Positions 6,434 through 16,797 of a DNA stretch of 46,214 nt are shown here, one piece after another. The stretch's first letter is position 1; every line of letters starts with the position of its first letter. The DNA comes from Candidatus Hydrogenedentota bacterium (GTDB lineage Bacteria; Hydrogenedentota; Hydrogenedentia; Hydrogenedentales; SLHB01): the NCBI GenBank assembly GCA_012719295.1, contig JAAYAQ010000013.1, positions 1 to 46,214 on the forward strand, read 5' to 3'. Made by a program: the position numbers and the translations under genes. Below the pieces are notes generated by a model. That model did not search any database. It saw nothing but the letters and a program-made list of their open reading frames with translations, and was not told the origin of the DNA.

Positions 6434-8041
6434 CTACGTTCGTTTTCCGCGGCGCTTGCGGCGCAACAGGGAAGCGAAATCGCCCAGTTCGTCTACCCGC
6501 AACACATGGCACGCTCCCAGGTACCCCACGGCGCAGGCCGCAAGCAGGGCGGCAACCGACGCGAGTTGCGCGGCGCCCGTGTCCGCGGGCCAGAGGGCCG
6601 CGACACGGGTATGCGCGGCATAGCCCGCCGCGGTCATCACCGCGCCGGCGACAGTCATGCGGAGCAGCGCCGTGAAAAAGACGCTGTTCCACAGGGGGCC
6701 ATGCCGCATCACCAGCAGGTAGTACAGGCCCCCGAAGTTCACCGTATAGGAGATGACGGTAGCCAGGGCCAGACCCCGGTATCCCAGCGGTTTCACCATC
6801 GCGACATTCAGAAGAATGTTCAGCAGCATGCTCGCGCTGGCCACGATCACCGGGGTCTTGGTGTCGCCGACGCAGAAGAACCCGGTTACGCCCACCTTGA
6901 TCCATGCGAACGCGAGGAGACCAAGGGAATAAATACTCAGCGCTCCCACCGTCAATTCCGTCTGGGCCGGGGTCCAGTCGCCTCGTTCGAACAGCAGACG
7001 GACAATCGGTTCTCCAAAGAACAGCAGGCCCAGCAGCGACGGACAGACCAGAAAGTAGCTCTGCCGGAACCCCGTCATCAGCGTTTCCCGGATCTCCCTC
7101 ACCCGGTCCCTCGCCGCCGCCTGCGAGAGGAGCGGAAGAATGGCCACGGCCACGGCAAACCCAAACATCGAAAGGGGGAGCTGGATGAGACGGTTCGCGT
7201 AGTAGAACGCGCTCACGATGCCTTCGTCCAGGCTGCGGGCAAACAAGGCGTCGACGAGTTTGTTGACTTCACCCGCGGCCTGGCCCACCAGCACCGGCGC
7301 CATCAGGGCGTAGATCTTCCAGACCCCGGCGTGCCGCAGCCTGAAATCCGGAAGCCAGATCCCCGTCTTTCTCCCCAGCGACACATACAGCACCACCAAC
7401 TGGGCAATGCCGCCCAGCCACACGCCCAGAACCAGCGCATAGGCCGGATCCTGAAAGGTGTTGCGGAACGCGACGCAGCACGCGATGAGCGCAACGTTCA
7501 GCAGGGCCGGCGACCAGGATGGCGTCGCGTACTCCCGCAGCGTGTACAGCGGGCCCATCGCAAACACGGCCATCCCGATGAAAAACAGATACGGAAACGT
7601 CCACCGGGCAAGCACCGTGATCAATCCCAGGTCGTCCGGCGACAGCGTCTTGCCGCCGGTGATGGGCTTCAACGTGTTGAGTCCGCCCAGCAATATCGGG
7701 ACGAGCACCGTCCCCAGCGCCGTCAGTGCCAGGAGCACCAGCAACATGGATGACATGGCCGAGGACACCAGCTTCTTGAACTCCTGGTCCCCGTCGTTCT
7801 CGAGCGTCTTGGTATACACCGGCACAAACGCGGCGTTCAGGGCGCCCTCTCCGATCATGTCCCGCAGCATGTTGGGCAGTTTGAACGCGAGGATGAACGC
7901 GTCACGCGAACCTACCGCCACCAGCGCCCCTACCACCATGTCCCGGACAAGCCCCAGAATCCGGCTGAGCATGGTGCCGCCGGCGAAGATGGACGCCAGC
8001 CGGGCACTCAGACGCGCGGACGGGTTCGTTTTCTGGCTCAT
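6434..8041 (-). CDS. murJ: Lipid II flippase MurJ (MviN family)
   Basis: An inner-membrane flippase moving lipid II to the periplasmic face for peptidoglycan synthesis. It is 535 residues, the usual size, and highly hydrophobic with many membrane helices. Typical landmarks: AGGTMLSRILGLVRDMVVGALVAVG and KLPNMLRDMIGEGALNAAFVPVYT near the N terminus, LFARSLDEGIVSAFYYANRLIQLPLSMFG, and GLLFFGEPIVRLLFERGDW. The ATG at 8041 (MSQKTNPS) is taken over an upstream start because the Arg-rich extension overlaps the lnt 3' end and is not family-like. It lies 25 bases after lnt, so co-transcription is expected. Confidence 0.93.
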   Translation of the reverse strand: MSQKTNPSARLSARLASIFAGGTMLSRILGLVRDMVVGALVAVGSRDAFILAFKLPNMLRDMIGEGALNAAFVPVYTKTLENDGDQEFKKLVSSAMSSMLLVLLALTALGTVLVPILLGGLNTLKPITGGKTLSPDDLGLITVLARWTFPYLFFIGMAVFAMGPLYTLREYATPSWSPALLNVALIACCVAFRNTFQDPAYALVLGVWLGGIAQLVVLYVSLGRKTGIWLPDFRLRHAGVWKIYALMAPVLVGQAAGEVNKLVDALFARSLDEGIVSAFYYANRLIQLPLSMFGFAVAVAILPLLSQAAARDRVREIRETLMTGFRQSYFLVCPSLLGLLFFGEPIVRLLFERGDWTPAQTELTVGALSIYSLGLLAFAWIKVGVTGFFCVGDTKTPVIVASASMLLNILLNVAMVKPLGYRGLALATVISYTVNFGGLYYLLVMRHGPLWNSVFFTALLRMTVAGAVMTAAGYAAHTRVAALWPADTGAAQLASVAALLAACAVGYLGACHVLRVDELGDFASLLRRKRRGKRT

Positions 8042-8066
8042 GGTGCGCTGTGCCCCCCTGAAGAGC

Positions 8067-9638
8067 TCATGGCGCCTGAGCGGCCGGAGGACGGCGCCGC
8101 AAGACAAGCGCAAGCGCCACGAGAAGCGCCGCGGCCGCCGCAGAGGCCTGCGGGACACGCTGGGGCGCCCACGGCACGGGGCGTGCCGCCGGTTCCGCCA
8201 CAGGCAGCGCGCCCACGCAACGGAACAGCCTCGTGTCCCGCGGCGACAGATCCCCCCGAAGCCGGTGAAACCCGCCGTACGGCGTCACCATCGCGTTCGT
8301 GGCCGTAAAGCGGCCCCAGGGGTCAAACACGCCGGAGATCCCCGTATTCGCGCAGTGGACGACCGCCAGCCGGGTCTCGATCGCGCGCAGCCGGGCCTGC
8401 TCAAGCTCCTGCTCGAGCGCGTTGCTCGAGCCAAACCAGCCCAGATTGGTGATGACCACCAGAAAATCCGCCCCCTGCCGGCGCAACGCCTCGCTCATTT
8501 CCGCAAAGAGCACCTCGAAACAGATCAGCGGCCCGAACGTGCGGTTCTCCAGTGAAAATACCCGCGTCTCGCGGCCGGGTTCCACATCGCTGATGATCGG
8601 AACGATCTTCTGGATGAACGGGAAATGCGACCCGAACGGCACATACTCCCCAAACGGCGCCAGGTGAATCTTGTCGTAATACCCGTCCAGCGTGCCGTCA
8701 GCGGCAATAAGGAAACTCGAATTCCGGGACCGCCCGGTCTCCGCATCCGTGCGCTGCGACCCCGTAAACAGCGCGGCGCCGGTGTCCCGTGTCAGGGCCT
8801 CGATCGGGGCGAAGATCTCGGGAAGCGTCAGCTCGTCCATCACCAGGGTTTCCGGCCAGACAAACAGATCTACGGGTTCGTTCTCGGCAAGCACGCGCGA
8901 TTTCTGTGCGGCATTGCGGACCATTTCCACCGTGTATTCGGGGTCCCATTTCATTTCCAGCGGGAAGTTCGATTGAAACACGCCCACCTGAAACGGGGGA
9001 GAGGCGTACGCGGCCGGTTGCACCAGAGCCATCCCTGCCCCGTGCGTCCCGATCAGGAGCGACAAGGCCGTTGCCGCGCGCGCGAACCGGAGCCTGCGCG
9101 TATGGATCACTTCCGCAAGCAGTGCGTTGAATGCGACGAGCACGCCCGCCAGGAGGGGCGTCCCTCCGATGGCGGCAAGCTGGAGCAGCGGGAGGTCCTT
9201 GCCCTGCGAATACGCCAGATTGCTCCAGCCAAAGCCGCTGAGCAGGTGGTTTTGGGCATACTCCATGGCCATCCACAGTACCGCGAACAGCAGGGCCCCC
9301 GGCATCCACGGAAGCCGGCCGCGCAACCAGGACCAGGCTGCGCCCGTCGCCGCCCAATACGCCGCCATCACAAGGCAGACCGCCTGCTGGCCCCAGAACG
9401 CCCAGCCTCCCGCCCAATAGAAGTTGGTGAGCAGCCACTGAAGAAGCACGCTGTGAAACGCCCATCCGGCAACAAAGAAACGCGCGGCCGCCTCCCTCGG
9501 GGCGGAGTCGCGGCAGGCGTACAGCAATGGCGTCAGGGCGACCCAGGCCAGAAAATACAGGTGCCAGGTGGGGAAGCACAGCGCGAGCATCGCGCCGCTC
9601 AGCAACGGGGCCCCCCAGGTTTGGATCATCGTCTTCAT
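8067..9638 (-). CDS. lnt: Apolipoprotein N-acyltransferase
   Basis: Adds the third acyl chain to the N-terminal Cys of lipoproteins at the inner membrane. N-terminal membrane helices (about 10-210) are followed by a nitrilase-type domain. The catalytic triad is visible: E263 (VWPE), K323 (YDKIHLAPFGEYVP) and C373 (LICFEVLF). About 523 residues from ATG 9638, the usual length. A longer GTG start at 9704 exists, but it lies beside the terminator of the previous unit and its extension is not family-like. No strong ribosome site is visible. A 12-base palindrome (TCATGCGCATGA, 9649-9660) lies just upstream. First gene of lnt-murJ. Confidence 0.92.
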   Translation of the reverse strand: MKTMIQTWGAPLLSGAMLALCFPTWHLYFLAWVALTPLLYACRDSAPREAAARFFVAGWAFHSVLLQWLLTNFYWAGGWAFWGQQAVCLVMAAYWAATGAAWSWLRGRLPWMPGALLFAVLWMAMEYAQNHLLSGFGWSNLAYSQGKDLPLLQLAAIGGTPLLAGVLVAFNALLAEVIHTRRLRFARAATALSLLIGTHGAGMALVQPAAYASPPFQVGVFQSNFPLEMKWDPEYTVEMVRNAAQKSRVLAENEPVDLFVWPETLVMDELTLPEIFAPIEALTRDTGAALFTGSQRTDAETGRSRNSSFLIAADGTLDGYYDKIHLAPFGEYVPFGSHFPFIQKIVPIISDVEPGRETRVFSLENRTFGPLICFEVLFAEMSEALRRQGADFLVVITNLGWFGSSNALEQELEQARLRAIETRLAVVHCANTGISGVFDPWGRFTATNAMVTPYGGFHRLRGDLSPRDTRLFRCVGALPVAEPAARPVPWAPQRVPQASAAAAALLVALALVLRRRPPAAQAP

Positions 9639-9713
9639 CGTGGCGGGATCATGCGCATGACCAGGCCCCCAATTCAACTCCGAAGGCGCCGCCGCCGCAA
9701 GCACGCCGCGCCG

Positions 9714-9748
9714 AAAAAAACCGGCAGGCCACGCGTCTGGCCTGCCGG
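9714..9748 (-). terminator. Rho-independent terminator of the secretin operon
   Basis: Read on the minus strand, a perfect 10-bp stem (9721-9730 with 9739-9748), an 8-base loop, then seven T (9714-9720). It lies 32 bases beyond the stop of the second secretin gene and separates that operon from lnt-murJ. Confidence 0.92.
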
Positions 9749-9780
9749 GACGTTACCGGAATCGCTCAACCACCGGAGAA

Positions 9781-10860
9781 CTACAGCTCGTCCTCCATGA
9801 TCTCGATTTCCTGCTCGATGCGGTCCAGGTTCTTCCACTTCTCTTCACGCCAGAAATTGAGGGCGCTGATGGCTTCCGGCCGAAGATTGCGGAGGTCTAC
9901 GATGGTCGGGGAAAGGAAGATCAGCAGGTGCGAATTGCGCGCTTCCACCCGGCGTCCACGGAAAGGCGCACCCAGCACCGGCATCTTGCCCACCAGGGGA
10001 ATGCGGCGTTCGGTCTTGGTGACGTTGCGCGTCGACAGGCCGCCGATCACCAGCGTCTGGCCGTTCGGCACCAGCACCTGGCCCGTCTGTTCCCGCGTCG
10101 AAAACACGGGGAGGTCGATGCCGCGAATGGGACTCGACGGCAACTGATCGACCACGTTCAGTTTGGCCAGGTTGATCTCGATCATGTCGTCGTCGAGAAT
10201 CACCGGCTGAATGCTCAGATTCACACCCACCTGGCGCCACGTCACCTGGAGCTGCGCCCGGCCTTTCTGATAGATCAACGACTGGTAGGGGATCTCTTCG
10301 CCCGCGTGAATCTCCGCGGTCCCGTTCTCCACCACCAGCAGTTCCGGTTTCGAAATCAGGTCGGCATCCGACTTCTGCTCTATCCCGCGGATGATCCCGT
10401 CGATCGTGCCCGTGCCGCTGTCGATGATGCTGAACGTGATGCCCGCCCCACTCTGCGTCGTGATGGCGTCCCCCTGCAGGGTGCTCCCCTGAGCCACGCT
10501 GGCGGGGAAATCCGGCGTCAGACGCACGTTGTCGGCATACGGGTTCGCGTCCGCGGCCGGAAGCGTCACCTGAAAGGAATTCGGGTCGAATACCCGCGTG
10601 GAAATCCGTTCCACGCTGCCGCTGTTTTCATTGCCCCGCACGAACCGCGTGTAGTCCAGGTTCGTCCCAATATCCCGCAACCCGTCTTCCGTGGTCTCGC
10701 TGATCCATACCTGGATCTGGACCTGGCGGATCGCCTCGACCTGCTGCGCAGCCGGCGGCGCCTCAACGGGCGGCGGGGGAGGCGTCTCCTCACCGGCCAG
10801 GGCGATGCCTGCCATAATTCCGAGCAGCGCGAGTGCTGGCAGAACCCGTTGGATAACCAT
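9781..10860 (-). CDS. Short secretin-domain outer-membrane protein (second of pair)
   Basis: 359 residues. A signal peptide (about 1-22), a Pro-rich linker and a region VQIQVWISETTEDGLRDIG precede a C-terminal secretin domain (about 160-325). Landmarks: LISKPELLVVENGTAEIHAGEEIPYQS, VGVNLSIQPVI, and the closing VPNGQTLVIGGL with RRIPLVGKMPVLGAPF and LLIFLSPTIVD. The N0-N3 ring domains of GspD/PilQ are missing or reduced, so it is much shorter than classical secretins. Its ATG shares one base with the upstream gene's stop (TAATG), implying coupled translation. Probably an outer-membrane ring component; the cargo is unknown. Confidence 0.82.
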   Translation of the reverse strand: MVIQRVLPALALLGIMAGIALAGEETPPPPPVEAPPAAQQVEAIRQVQIQVWISETTEDGLRDIGTNLDYTRFVRGNENSGSVERISTRVFDPNSFQVTLPAADANPYADNVRLTPDFPASVAQGSTLQGDAITTQSGAGITFSIIDSGTGTIDGIIRGIEQKSDADLISKPELLVVENGTAEIHAGEEIPYQSLIYQKGRAQLQVTWRQVGVNLSIQPVILDDDMIEINLAKLNVVDQLPSSPIRGIDLPVFSTREQTGQVLVPNGQTLVIGGLSTRNVTKTERRIPLVGKMPVLGAPFRGRRVEARNSHLLIFLSPTIVDLRNLRPEAISALNFWREEKWKNLDRIEQEIEIMEDEL

Positions 10861-12095
10861 TACTTGTCTTCCTCCATTTTCAACTCGGAATCAATCCCCG
10901 TGCCGGTCGAACCGCCCGTTATCGCGTCGCCAAGGTTCTGCGGAATGGACGATACCCCCTCCAGAATGTCCGTCAGCAAGCCCGTTGGCGACACCTTGCT
11001 GGCCGGCGTCTCTTCTCCCAGGTTGACGAAACCGTGTTCATCGGCCACGACGAAGGGCGCACGCCACAACTCGGACTTAATGAAGAAGACCAGTTCGCGG
11101 CGGCCTTCGTCCGCTTCCCGGTGGCCAAAGGTCGTCGAGAGAGGCGCGCCGATAAAATTGCCGGGAATGAAGTTCTCCGCCACGCCGACCGCTACGTCTT
11201 CGGCCTGGGTCAGCCAGGGAACCGTCTCGAGGCTTTTCTGTTTGGTGTTGCGATACAGGCCGCCCAGTACCAGCACCTGCCCGTTCCGCACCCATACGTC
11301 GGTCATGATGCTTCGGGTAATGAACACCGGCGCGGTGATCTGGTTGCCGCCTTCCAGACTGTCGTCCAGGGCGATGACGATGCGCGAACCCAGCTCCTTC
11401 ACCTCCGCCTGAACCTGCAGATTCACATACGTGTCTTCCAGGGTGGCCCAGTTCCCGTCGTCGTCGGTCACTTTCGGCACCTTCAACGTCAGGGCCACGC
11501 CGGTATCGCGGAACGAGGTGGCCTGCACCGTCGTGGCGCCCACCACCGTCGTGTCTTCGTACGGAATCTCGCGCACCGTCTTGATGACAGTCCCCGGCCG
11601 CTCCGCTCCGATCATCACCATCGCTTTAGGACGCGACAGGATGTACGCGCGGTTTTCGTCCACCAGCGCCTGCAACACCATCTCGATGTCGCCGTAATTC
11701 GTGGAGATGTTGTCCAGAAAGACCGTCAGACCCTCCAGACGGTTTCCCGAGTCCGTCGGAAAGGTCAGATCGGCCGTCCGGATGGCCCCGTTGCCGCTCG
11801 TAACGCGGCCGTAGAGGCGCTCCTTGTTCCGGCGCGAGAAGAAGGCGCTGAACCCCGTCTCCACGTTCTTTTCCGTCTGGAACTCCACCACCTTTACAGA
11901 GACATTGACCTGCCGGGGGGCTTCCGTATCCAGCGGTAGCGGAGGCGCGGGGGCCGGCGCTGGCGCTGCTTCCGGGGCCGGCGCTGGCGCGGCTTCCGGG
12001 GCCGGCGCCGCGGCGGCTTCTTCCCCGGCGTATCCTGCCGGTGCGATCAGCCCCACTGCCAGTACAACGAAACCAAACAAATACCATTTTCGCAT
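10860..12095 (-). CDS. Secretin-domain protein with Pro-Ala linker (first of pair)
   Basis: 411 residues. A signal peptide (about 1-23) is followed by a Glu/Ala/Pro repeat linker (24-52) and a secretin-like domain (about 60-355): VNVSVKVVEFQTEKNVETGF, ILSRPKAMVMIG, FRDTGVALTLKVPKV, VWVRNGQVLVLGGLYRNTKQKS, and RRELVFFIKSEL. A Gly/Ser-rich C-terminal tail follows. It is more divergent than its partner. ATG 12095 is chosen, 7 bases past the lipoprotein gene's stop codon, with GGTAGG upstream. The pair is translationally coupled, suggesting a hetero-oligomer. Confidence 0.78.
   Translation of the reverse strand: MRKWYLFGFVVLAVGLIAPAGYAGEEAAAAPAPEAAPAPAPEAAPAPAPAPPLPLDTEAPRQVNVSVKVVEFQTEKNVETGFSAFFSRRNKERLYGRVTSGNGAIRTADLTFPTDSGNRLEGLTVFLDNISTNYGDIEMVLQALVDENRAYILSRPKAMVMIGAERPGTVIKTVREIPYEDTTVVGATTVQATSFRDTGVALTLKVPKVTDDDGNWATLEDTYVNLQVQAEVKELGSRIVIALDDSLEGGNQITAPVFITRSIMTDVWVRNGQVLVLGGLYRNTKQKSLETVPWLTQAEDVAVGVAENFIPGNFIGAPLSTTFGHREADEGRRELVFFIKSELWRAPFVVADEHGFVNLGEETPASKVSPTGLLTDILEGVSSIPQNLGDAITGGSTGTGIDSELKMEEDK
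11950..12021. repeat. Three 24-bp tandem repeats coding a Pro-Ala linker
   Basis: Three near-identical 24-base units (11950-11973, 11974-11997, 11998-12021) encode the repeated Glu-Ala-Ala-Pro-Ala-Pro-Ala-Pro linker of the first secretin-domain protein. The third unit is the most diverged. Repeat number could vary by slippage without breaking the frame. Confidence 0.85.
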
Positions 12096-12102
12096 TGCTG
12101 AC

Positions 12103-13113
12103 CTACCGTTGAAATGTTCCGATGGCCTCATACCGAGTCACATTCTCGATATCGTCGAAGATGCTGAAGCGCACCACAAATGCGCGTGCTTCACCAGGAT
12201 TCAAACGGCCGATATTGACCGTGCTCGTGTCGTAAATCATGTTGCCGAACCCGTACACCGTCACGTTGACCTGCACGCCGTACAAGACACTGTCGCCGCG
12301 GTTGTGGGCCTGGCCCGTGACCACGTAAAAGTCCTGTCCCCGGTAGTAGGATCGCTCGCCGGCGCCCACGTCCGTGCCGCCGCGGAAATCATTGAGATTG
12401 GTGATGATAAGCGGCTCTTCCTCAATGGACCGCTTCTGCCGCTCTTCCGGCGTCAGCAACGTGTAGCTGCCGTCGGGTTTGAACTCGATGCGCTCCTTCA
12501 GGCGCACATCGGTGGCGTACGTGGGGTACTTCTCGATGATGTTGGCGTACAGTTCGCCGGCCATGTCGTAATCCCCGCGCTTCCACAACAGATCGGCCAA
12601 TTCCCACTTGGCCTTGTAGTTCGCGGGCTCTTCCTTGACCGTATTCCACAGGGCCGTAATCGAAGCATCCAGCTGGTCTGGCGAGCCGAACTCGTCGGTG
12701 TACTCCTTGCGCAGATCCGCAATGCGCTGCGCACACTCCTCCGCGTACCGTCCGTGCGGGGACTCGTGGAGGTATTCCTCAAAAAGATTGATCGCGTCCC
12801 GATAGCTCTTGATGTTGTAATACGCGACCGCCAGCCAGTACCGGGCATCCATGGACGCATCCGAATACGGGTATTTCTGGATGACCTGGAGCAGACGCGG
12901 GATCACGATGTTGTAATCCCCGGCCTCAATCATCCGGCGCGCTTCCTCGACCTGCTTGTCGGCCGAACCTTCCTCCAGCACCCGGTTCTTGGTGACCGGG
13001 GTCGCCGTCATCGGCACGTTGCTTGAAGGCGTCGTGCACCCGACTAGCTGCACGACGAATCCCACAAGGCTCACCATTACCAGGATCTTAGCGGTCGCAT
13101 GTGCTCGTTGCAT
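12103..13113 (-). CDS. TPR outer-membrane lipoprotein with FxLYD-like C terminus
   Basis: 336 residues. A type II signal with lipobox L-V-G-C (Cys26) predicts a lipid-anchored protein. Residues about 50-210 hold BamD-like TPR pairs (ARRMIEAGDYNIVIPRLLQVIQKYP, YWLAVAYYNIKSYRDAINLFEEYL, LADLLWKRGDYDMAGELYANIIEKYP). The C terminus (about 250-336) reads VLYGVQVNVTVYG, then IGRLNPGEARAFVVRF, as in FxLYD-type beta domains. ATG 13113 is chosen because the signal peptide starts there. Placed directly before two secretin genes, it may act as pilotin or scaffold; that is inference. Confidence 0.8.
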   Translation of the reverse strand: MQRAHATAKILVMVSLVGFVVQLVGCTTPSSNVPMTATPVTKNRVLEEGSADKQVEEARRMIEAGDYNIVIPRLLQVIQKYPYSDASMDARYWLAVAYYNIKSYRDAINLFEEYLHESPHGRYAEECAQRIADLRKEYTDEFGSPDQLDASITALWNTVKEEPANYKAKWELADLLWKRGDYDMAGELYANIIEKYPTYATDVRLKERIEFKPDGSYTLLTPEERQKRSIEEEPLIITNLNDFRGGTDVGAGERSYYRGQDFYVVTGQAHNRGDSVLYGVQVNVTVYGFGNMIYDTSTVNIGRLNPGEARAFVVRFSIFDDIENVTRYEAIGTFQR

Positions 13114-13195
13114 AGTTGACTTCTCGCAGGAATCACCCTCGCCCCTGAAGCAACCCATTTGCTTCTACGGAGTGTCTGGCTCGTGTTCCCATTTC

Positions 13196-13621
13196 CTATC
13201 GGTTGCCGGCCTTCTTCAGATTCTCTTGCATGGTCTTGATGACCAGTTCGGTGACATCGTCCGCGGGAATTGCAGGCTCCAGGCCGCCCAGGTAGCCCTC
13301 AGCGGCTATGAGGTCGTACTCGGACTCCTGCCCCACCTGGGCAATCGTCCGGACGGCCCGGTCGCTCGCCTGGCTGATCAGAATCCAGTACCGCCCCGTT
13401 CCACGCTCAATCTTCTGGTCTTTGAGCTCCTTGTATTCCGGGGTTTCCACAATGATCTCCTGGTAGCGCACTTCCGCCGGCTTCTCGAACGAGCTGGGCA
13501 GCCCCCAGTAAATCTTCTGGGGGTCAACCTGCTTCTCTTCAATCGTATAAGCGGCGGCATATGAAATGCACATGCCCAGGACGAACCCAGCGACCACCAC
13601 TATCGTAACTGATTTACTCAT
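13196..13621 (-). CDS. Small exported protein of the secretin operon
   Basis: 141 residues, family not recognised. A signal peptide (SVTIVVVAGFVLGMCISYAAA, cleavage near 22) is followed by a mixed alpha/beta periplasmic domain with YWGLPSSFEKPAEVRYQEIIVETPEY and a closing helix (VTELVIKTMQENLKKA). The ATG at 13621 has AGGA upstream. It is first in the operon, behind the promoter at 13723-13752, with about 80 bases to the lipoprotein gene. Confidence 0.75.
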   Translation of the reverse strand: MSKSVTIVVVAGFVLGMCISYAAAYTIEEKQVDPQKIYWGLPSSFEKPAEVRYQEIIVETPEYKELKDQKIERGTGRYWILISQASDRAVRTIAQVGQESEYDLIAAEGYLGGLEPAIPADDVTELVIKTMQENLKKAGNR

Positions 13622-13722
13622 GATTTTCCTACCCTCTCTCATTTCGCAGCGCGGGCGGCTGCCTCCAGCAGCTCGCGCTTCCCCAACAACCCATCGTTGA
13701 CAGGCGCGGTCGCGAAGATGCC

Positions 13723-13752
13723 ATGGTACCGGCAAAGTGCGAACCCTGTCAA
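13723..13752 (-). promoter_or_regulatory. Sigma-70-type promoter of the secretin operon
   Basis: On the minus strand: a perfect TTGACA (13747-13752), an 18-base spacer and TACCAT (13723-13728). The leader to the ATG at 13621 is about 95 bases. Together with the terminator at 9714-9748 it delimits a four-gene unit. Confidence 0.65.
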
Positions 13753-14193: not shown

Positions 14194-16797
14194 ATGCCGC
14201 GTTCTCGCCGAACGTCCTTCGCATGTACCCTGTCCTGCCTCAGCCTGATCCTCGCTGGCGTTGCCACGGCCGGGGCTGTCCAGGCGGAGCCATCCCCCGG
14301 CGCCGCCGTCACGCGCGTCTGGGCGCGTCCGGCCGGCCATGAGGATGGCTCGCACACGACGGTCTCGTTTCAACTGGCGGACGTGACGACCGTTGAGGGC
14401 GCCCTGACGATTCCCTGCGAAGTTCAGATCGGCGCCGCGTTGGAGCAGCCGCAAGCACGGTTGTACATATACGACGGACAGGGGAACGCGCTTTTCGAGG
14501 GGAGGTCCGAGCTGGACGGCGACCAGGGGCGCTTCCATCCGGCGTTCGCGTGGCCTCTGGAGAATGTCAACGACGGAATCTACCGCGCCCGTCTCGAAGT
14601 CGTGCACGCCCTCAACCAGCCCCTGGCATGGCGCGAGGTTCATCTCGAGAAACGGACCCGGGAAACGCTTTCGGGGCGCATGGCCGAGCTGAGCGCCCTG
14701 GTCGACCTGGTCCGGGAGAGCATTCGGGGCGCCCGCGAGACCGAGGTGCCCGTCTACGCGTCCCAGCGCGCGACCATCGCGTCGGACGCGCTCCGCCGGG
14801 CGGAAGTCCTGCTTCAGGAGGGCGACTGGCCGCAGGCCGCCGCGCTCACCGAGTTCGCTGCGACGTCGTGCGATTCCGCGCGCGTCCTGTTGACCTTCGC
14901 TTCTCTGACCCCCGAACTGGGCGTGCCGGGGCCGATGCCCTCCGCCACATCGCTGGACATCCGCGACGGCGCCTTCTATGCCTCCGCATCCGAACCGGTG
15001 TTCCTGTTCGGGTTCCACGATCCCGCCGCCAACCCGCGCTCCCTCGCCCTGCTTGACCGGTACGGGCTGAATTTCGCCGCGATCGAGGTGTCTCCCGCGG
15101 ACCTCCTGCTGGAAGGCGGCGTCAACCTGGATACCATGGCGCGCATTGACACCTATCTCGAGAACGCGGATGCTCTGGGCATCGGCGTAACGGTCGGATT
15201 GGCCGCCGACATCGCCCCGGCGTGGCTGGGTTCCACGGCGCCCCCCGCCTCCCCGGAAACGCAGGGACCGGCCCGGGTCCGCGATCCCCGCGAAGCGCGC
15301 GCGCTCGGCCAGCGTCATCTTGATGCCGTCGCCCCGCTCCTTGAACGGCATCCCTCCGTCAACGGGATCAGCCTGGCGTCCGCCCCCGCATTCCGCTGGG
15401 AGACCGAAGAGGTGCGCCAGAGCTTTCAGCAGGCCGTGGTCCGGAAGTACAACGAGGACCGGCGGGCCGTAAACCGGGCCTGGCGAACCCACATGCGCGT
15501 GCTCGATGACATTCAGATCCTCTGGGACTATGAGCAGCCCTCGTATCAATATGACTGGCAGACGTGGCACCAGCATCTGGTTTCGAGCCACTTCACCTGG
15601 CTCGCCGAGTATGCGGACCGAACCTTGAGCGGCCTCCCTGTCCAGATCACCCTGTCCGACACGGTCCTCCAGACGGGCGAGGCCCGCACGGGCATCGACC
15701 GCCAGGTGCTGGCGGGCATTGCCGAGGTGACCGCGTGCACCGCGTCCTACACGTTCGGCGAATCGATGTACGCGGTGCCGTTTACCGGCCCCGACCTGTC
15801 TTTCCGCTTGCTCCGTTCGCTGGCTCCCGCCCATCCACTGATGGTCGTGGACCTCAATTTCGAGCTCGGCCTCGTGTCCGCCGGCGCCGACGCTTCCCGG
15901 TGCGTGCACACCGCCCTCTGGGACGCCGCTATCGCGGGCGTGAACGGTTTCGCAGCCAATCCGGCCGGGTTTCAGCAGAGCCCCGGAGGCCTCGACGGGT
16001 TTACGACGGCCTGCGCCGACCTGAACCGCCTGGGGGACATCGTCACCGCCTTTCAACGGACGGAAGCCCCCATCGCGATTCTCTGGAGCATGCCCTCGCA
16101 GATCTATCACGATGGCGAGACCTTCCTCGAATCCGTTCAGCGGGTGTACGAGGGGAGCGCGTTCTTCGGTTTTCCTGTCCGTTTCATTACCGAAGAAGCC
16201 TGCATCTCGGGCGGCCTGGCCGACGTTTCCGTGCTGGCCATGCCCGAGGTCCCGGCGCTGGCCGATGCGACCTTTGAAGCCGTGGACGCCTATGCCAAGG
16301 CCGGGGGAGTGATCATTCGCAGCGGACGCCCGGCGGCGTACACCCCCGCCGGTACCTCGCGCCATGACGTGATCACCCAGACGCCACGCACCATTTTTGT
16401 CCGGGCCTCCGATACACCCACGGTCTATCTGCACGCCCTCGATGCCGCCTACGTGTTCGGCGTGCTGCCCCCCATTCCTCGAACCATCAACACCTACGGC
16501 TATCCTCTGGAGGGGGTCAAGAGCCGGTACGTCCAACTGGACGGACAGGAGTACCTCTACGTGGTCAATCTCCGGAAGGAGCCGGTGCGGGTCGACCTGT
16601 TCGGCGGTCCACGCAAGGGGCGGGATCTTGTGCGCGGACGCAACATCCAGTTCCCTGCGGACCTCGAACCGCTTGATCCGATGCTGGTCCGCCTGGAGCC
16701 GCTGGATTCCGCCGTTCCGGCCGGAGGCGGCGTGCCCGTGCTCGCCGAGCACCAGGCCGAATCGGGGCCGGTCGTTCTGAGCCCTGTAACTCCTTAA
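14194..16797 (+). CDS. Exported GH42-like (beta-galactosidase fold) protein
   Basis: 867 residues with a signal peptide (cleavage near 31, AVQA). An N-terminal beta region (about 40-150) and a helical stretch (160-245) precede a TIM-barrel-like domain (about 270-600). RKYNEDRRAVNRAWRTHM followed by a Trp/Tyr-rich segment resembles the GH42 core. A glutamine-amidotransferase-like domain follows (about 615-715: FFGFPVRFITEEACISGGLADVSVLAMPE, then AKAGGVIIRSGR), and a small beta domain ends it. Where GH42 enzymes have the acid/base NE pair, this protein reads GISLASAPAF, so the acid/base Glu seems absent. Substrate unknown; it may be inactive or mechanistically different. Confidence 0.62.
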   Translation: MPRSRRTSFACTLSCLSLILAGVATAGAVQAEPSPGAAVTRVWARPAGHEDGSHTTVSFQLADVTTVEGALTIPCEVQIGAALEQPQARLYIYDGQGNALFEGRSELDGDQGRFHPAFAWPLENVNDGIYRARLEVVHALNQPLAWREVHLEKRTRETLSGRMAELSALVDLVRESIRGARETEVPVYASQRATIASDALRRAEVLLQEGDWPQAAALTEFAATSCDSARVLLTFASLTPELGVPGPMPSATSLDIRDGAFYASASEPVFLFGFHDPAANPRSLALLDRYGLNFAAIEVSPADLLLEGGVNLDTMARIDTYLENADALGIGVTVGLAADIAPAWLGSTAPPASPETQGPARVRDPREARALGQRHLDAVAPLLERHPSVNGISLASAPAFRWETEEVRQSFQQAVVRKYNEDRRAVNRAWRTHMRVLDDIQILWDYEQPSYQYDWQTWHQHLVSSHFTWLAEYADRTLSGLPVQITLSDTVLQTGEARTGIDRQVLAGIAEVTACTASYTFGESMYAVPFTGPDLSFRLLRSLAPAHPLMVVDLNFELGLVSAGADASRCVHTALWDAAIAGVNGFAANPAGFQQSPGGLDGFTTACADLNRLGDIVTAFQRTEAPIAILWSMPSQIYHDGETFLESVQRVYEGSAFFGFPVRFITEEACISGGLADVSVLAMPEVPALADATFEAVDAYAKAGGVIIRSGRPAAYTPAGTSRHDVITQTPRTIFVRASDTPTVYLHALDAAYVFGVLPPIPRTINTYGYPLEGVKSRYVQLDGQEYLYVVNLRKEPVRVDLFGGPRKGRDLVRGRNIQFPADLEPLDPMLVRLEPLDSAVPAGGGVPVLAEHQAESGPVVLSPVTP

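Follow-up and report, generated by a model that had tools for sequence, protein, structure and literature searches.

Two core-only secretins are encoded with a candidate pilotin in a conserved operon of Candidatus Hydrogenedentota

A four-gene operon of Candidatus Hydrogenedentota appears to encode a secretin channel of a variant not described before. Secretins are the outer-membrane exits of large machines. As a rule, a single kind of subunit forms them, and their N-domains tie them to the inner membrane. The operon locates at 9721-13752 on the minus strand of contig JAAYAQ010000013.1 from a metagenome-assembled genome (GCA_012719295.1), within a window, that is, the whole stretch of DNA analysed, of 46,214 nt. 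We propose with moderate confidence that its products are a dedicated secretin-type channel of the outer membrane and the factors that assemble it, and that this channel would be core-only, probably made of two subunits and incapable of the usual platform docking. Our search of the literature on secretins of Hydrogenedentota, on heteromeric or N-domain-less secretins and on the A. caldus structure returned nothing relevant beyond the papers on RhcC1/RhcC2 discussed below.

The genes run in the order 1-2-A-B, all on the minus strand. Gene 1 (13196-13621) encodes a small exported protein of 141 aa, which has a signal-peptide-like N-terminus and is a short Skp/OmpH-like protein. Gene 2 (12103-13113) encodes an outer-membrane lipoprotein with a lipobox cysteine at residue 26 and with TPR and FxLYD domains recognised in its orthologues. 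They are followed by secretin A (gene 3, 10860-12095) and secretin B (gene 4, 9781-10860), and the stop of the former and the start of the latter overlap by one base at TAATG. A promoter and a terminator lie at the two ends. Every element that the first-pass annotation had listed, from the promoter, the small exported protein and the lipoprotein to the TAATG-joined secretin pair and the terminator, was found on this strand.

The putative promoter (TTGACA-18-TACCAT, 13723-13752, minus strand) is sigma-70-like, agrees with the consensus at 10 of 12 positions and is kept in two congeneric loci. The consensus match alone is weak evidence, as 1.0 ± 1.0 promoter-like sites are expected by chance. 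In a second species of the genus, the promoter is kept as TTGACA-17-TAGTAT amid otherwise diverged sequence, and such retention is better evidence than the match to the consensus. At the other end, the predicted intrinsic terminator (9721-9748, minus strand) has an 11-pair stem, 9 of them GC, followed by T7, and is kept in the genus. Across the phylum, a terminator 3' of secretin B was detected in 7 of 38 loci, compared with 7% of shuffles, and seldom outside the own genus. Because so few loci have one, the operon may run into lnt in much of the phylum. Among the 34 loci with enough sequence, 22 have lnt downstream in the same orientation, at a median gap of about 80 bp (usually 15-345 bp), and murJ follows in 18 of 31. 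In the window, both follow the operon at 6434-9704 (minus strand), forming a conserved envelope-biogenesis cluster. The earlier description of the operon as self-contained holds in its own genus and fails elsewhere, where lnt mostly follows on the same strand and a terminator is rare.

Both secretins consist of the core domain only. The Pfam Secretin model matches secretin A with an E-value of 3.3e-20 and secretin B, which also has a C-terminal helix, with 7.3e-35; the higher and the lower of the two scores, 120.5 and 72.8 bits, are both above the curated cut-off of 27.5. The same domain was matched in all 36 secretin B and all 40 secretin A orthologues (E ≤ 0.1), whereas none of these 76 proteins gave a match to Secretin_N, STN or N0. 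The NCBIfam GspD model, 600 positions long, aligns to both proteins only from position 334-336, which is the start of the secretin core. Nothing precedes the core except the signal peptide plus an Ala/Pro linker. The first-pass annotation rightly called the two proteins truncated but understated the loss: it held that most N-domains were lacking, when in fact all are absent.

We further modeled the two secretins as single chains with AlphaFold, using alignments of 36 and 40 sequences. The mean pLDDT values of 66 and 68 indicate moderate confidence, and the long barrel strands are confident. Searching the PDB with Foldseek gave 40 matches for each secretin at E ≤ 0.001. Every one of these is a secretin, and they include structures of GspD, PulD and XcpQ and the RcpA-TadD structure 8odn. 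We attribute the low TM-scores of the models to the use of single chains, predicted with moderate confidence and taken out of the ring. The two folds match only known secretins; the outcome that would have counted against the first-pass annotation, predicted structures with no beta-barrel gate, did not occur. By sequence and by predicted fold, secretins A and B thus qualify as genuine secretin cores.

Among 68 genomes of the phylum, secretin A is present in 62 and secretin B in 58; the lipoprotein was found in 64 and gene 1, like secretin A, in 62. All four genes are absent from four genomes (G013, G019, G045, G057). Wherever a locus is complete enough, the gene order is identical. In 51 of the 58 genomes, B comes after A with strand and contig shared; in the remaining seven, at least one of the pair lies near a contig end, so far as the coordinates tell. 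The phylogenetic profile, proposed earlier as a check, reveals that the four genes form a fixed unit throughout the phylum and are present or absent jointly. Two genomes (G018 and G023) each carry two secretin B genes. We also considered whether the absence of all four genes from G019, which is 95% complete and keeps other secretins, proves the independence of the operon. This argument was dropped, since chance alone should leave one or two loci missing among 38 good metagenome-assembled genomes.

Outside the phylum, a scan of about 85,000 species with two short patterns, which could miss distant relatives, found no secretin A orthologue. The sole outside match was weak, to an ordinary Pseudomonas secretin, and two matches under other organism names came from contigs corresponding to genomes that are assigned to the phylum in this analysis. 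A mobile or horizontally spread system was rejected: plasmids hold no close match, only distant secretins at 23-29% identity, and the one inspected adjoins cpaD. The phylum-wide conservation, together with the frequent adjacency of lnt and murJ, suggests a core role in the cell envelope.

In order to compare the two secretins, we placed them in a tree of the secretin cores of the phylum. Secretin A is monophyletic (support 1.0), as is secretin B (0.95), and both stand apart from the other secretins sampled; the deeper order is not resolved in this tree. The gate-region glycine is present in all 22 secretin B sequences compared and in none of the 22 of secretin A. The usual lip motif is found in secretin B (22/22), while secretin A carries about 20 extra residues at the lip (22/22, versus 0/23 among other secretins). 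Since no more than roughly half of the other sampled secretins have the gate glycine, its loss in secretin A is suggestive and not decisive. Judged from their sequences, A and B are separate, ancient, phylum-wide families with complementary motif loss.

How A and B combine is the next point. To our knowledge, the known secretins are homomeric, and the age, the clear separation and the differing lip and gate motifs of the two families would agree with two separate homomeric rings, which share assembly factors and differ in role or substrate. We regard this as possible, though doubtful, given the strict one-to-one pairing of the genes, their overlapping reading frames and their joint duplication. 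Across the loci, the reading frames of the pair overlap or are closely spaced, and in one genome lipoprotein, A and B are tandemly duplicated as a unit without the small protein (L032 4121-11776, L069 2521-10180). On the basis of the strict pairing and the translational coupling, we favor a mixed ring as the probable form of the channel. A different idea is that the rings are structural, serving as an outer-membrane scaffold or plug and not as a transport channel. Secretin A, with neither the gate glycine nor the normal lip motif, and the envelope-biogenesis neighbors lnt and murJ would fit such a role; the gate and lip motifs are nevertheless intact in B, and the solved relatives that we found are channels, so we consider a purely structural function quite improbable.

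Pilotin lipoproteins bring many secretins to the outer membrane, and several of them, namely PilF/PilW, TadD and probably Y4yS, belong to the TPR proteins. TPR lipoproteins serve PilQ, RcpA and RhcC2 in this way. Gene 2 shows one mark of a TPR-type secretin pilotin such as PilF/PilW or TadD, being a TPR lipoprotein encoded with a secretin. Its lipobox Cys26 is invariant in 19 of 19 orthologues, 15 of the 19 match the PilW model, and the FxLYD domain sits C-terminal of the TPR repeats. Because the known secretin pilotins include several TPR lipoproteins, the gene 2 product is, by analogy, likely the pilotin for secretins A and B. The suggestion of a dedicated lipoprotein is borne out in that a TPR lipoprotein regularly accompanies the secretin pair across the phylum.

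The small protein of gene 1 had been described simply as exported. It is exported, and it is also not featureless, as 15 of 18 orthologues weakly match OmpH/Skp (best E 7e-5). The likeness covers the C-terminal part, whereas the middle region of gene 1 is much shorter than that of Skp/OmpH. The protein in the window scores 17.2 bits, below the curated OmpH cut-off of 32.4, and a canonical OmpH is present elsewhere in the own genome. We therefore mention a weakly Skp-like periplasmic chaperone as a possible identity. Some gene 1 matches contained apparent in-frame TAG stops; in the case checked (G037), this was the protein's own stop codon within the match. Additional copies of gene 1 occur away from the secretin operon at G004:C102:365496-365891 and G007:C23:23277-23657.

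The neighborhood of the operon contains no sign of a secretion motor. Neither an ATPase, a T2SSF protein nor another secretin occurs elsewhere on the own contig, and no such gene recurs in 44 loci from relatives. No ATPase, platform or pilin gene is near the operon, as the earlier remark on missing ATPase, platform and pseudopilin genes had it. Nor do the four genes ever sit in a standard T2SS or pilus locus, the other outcome that would have counted against the first-pass annotation. Upstream, in the divergent direction, lies an exported 867-aa protein (14194-16797, plus strand), whose homologue occupies this position in 17 of 22 loci from relatives. It has no Pfam or NCBIfam match, and phmmer links the C-terminal part with the structure of a GH167 glycoside hydrolase.

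On the other hand, the search for distant GspE/F genes gave a mixed answer. Elsewhere the own genome encodes three more secretins, namely a GspD with GspE beside it, one that is PilQ-like and a Gly-rich third one, and, on other contigs, several GspE/PilB-like ATPases and T2SSF proteins; nearly every genome of the phylum has further secretins. The third secretin is full-size (L004 19-2106, plus strand, contig C334), with a long Gly-rich stretch inserted ahead of the core. Because these genomes encode platform genes and further secretins outside the operon, a platform may be shared, as far as the phylogenetic profile goes. The A/B pair could then belong, as its outer-membrane component, to a type II, type IV pilus or Tad-like machine, which secretins normally serve, with the motor and platform genes located elsewhere. 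We think this unlikely, because A and B have no docking N-domains, the operon is never found in a motor locus, and the genome already has a full-length GspD and a PilQ-like secretin, which do match N-domain families, unlike A and B.

Among known systems, GspD resembles A and B in the secretin core, with matching folds, and shares its gate and lip motifs with secretin B. It differs by its N0-N3 domains; A and B are without them, comprise two different subunits and have no gsp genes nearby, and the higher and the lower of their scores, 120.4 and 65.7 bits, lie far below the GspD equivalog cut-off of 351. PilQ with its TPR pilotin (PilF/PilW/Tgl) is likewise a secretin with a TPR lipoprotein, and PilQ is the best-scoring model for secretin B. 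Here, in contrast, N-domains are absent, both scores (124.4 and 65.6 bits) miss the PilQ family cut-off of 284, FxLYD is added to the lipoprotein, and no pil genes are near. The Tad secretin RcpA/CpaC with TadD also combines a secretin with a TPR lipoprotein; the present operon differs in that neither a Secretin_N nor a BON domain was detected, genes for a Tad ATPase or for pilins are absent from the vicinity, and there are two secretins. On N-domains, curated scores and gene context, A and B are members of the secretin superfamily outside the GspD and PilQ families.

The nearest precedent with two genes for the secretin function is RhcC1/RhcC2 of rhizobial type III secretion, in which the N-part and the core, the latter with a BON domain, are separate proteins (PMC3459982). 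RhcC2 is accompanied by the TPR lipoprotein Y4yS, a proposed pilotin (PMC4500985). In that system the N-part is split from the core, whereas A and B are both cores. By this precedent, a separate protein might supply the N-domains here, and the own genome does encode one exported orphan protein with Secretin_N and without a core (L134 967-1806, minus strand, contig C469). Our survey of orphan proteins with a Secretin_N domain found no conserved partner; the C469 protein is the only orphan Secretin_N protein and occurs in 4 of 68 genomes, against 62 for secretin A. On this survey it was rejected as an obligate partner, and a split secretin of this type is very improbable.

Inner-membrane components are contacted by secretin N-domains. 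With no N-domains in cis and the sole orphan Secretin_N protein not conserved, docking to the usual T2SS or T4P platform is unlikely, which favors a stand-alone or unusually partnered outer-membrane channel. We propose that all four proteins are exported by Sec, as predicted from their sequences. The small Skp-like protein, to judge from its weak OmpH homology and the gene order, would hold both secretins in the periplasm, and the TPR-FxLYD lipoprotein would guide both to the outer membrane, a task that PilF/PilW, TadD and Y4yS perform, or are believed to perform, for their own secretins. Made in coupled amounts, A and B would assemble as secretin barrels, a step supported by the predicted folds, most likely into one mixed ring. 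In such a ring, B would contribute a gate and a lip of the normal type, and the lip contributed by A would be modified. A ring without N0-N3 could not bind GspC/PilP-type partners in the usual manner, and may act as a stand-alone gated channel or with other partners. A more far-reaching version, in which two different core-only subunits form one gated heteromeric ring that works independently of any motor or platform in the inner membrane and serves the whole phylum as a core channel of the envelope, is offered tentatively; as a whole, we judge it somewhat improbable.

The phylum-wide pairing of core-only secretins with their own helpers suggests that a secretin pore can be used free of a machine. 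These naturally minimal secretins are on offer for structural work and for engineered pores. For the Hydrogenedentota, a phylum known here only from metagenome-assembled genomes, they provide a first handle on envelope biology.
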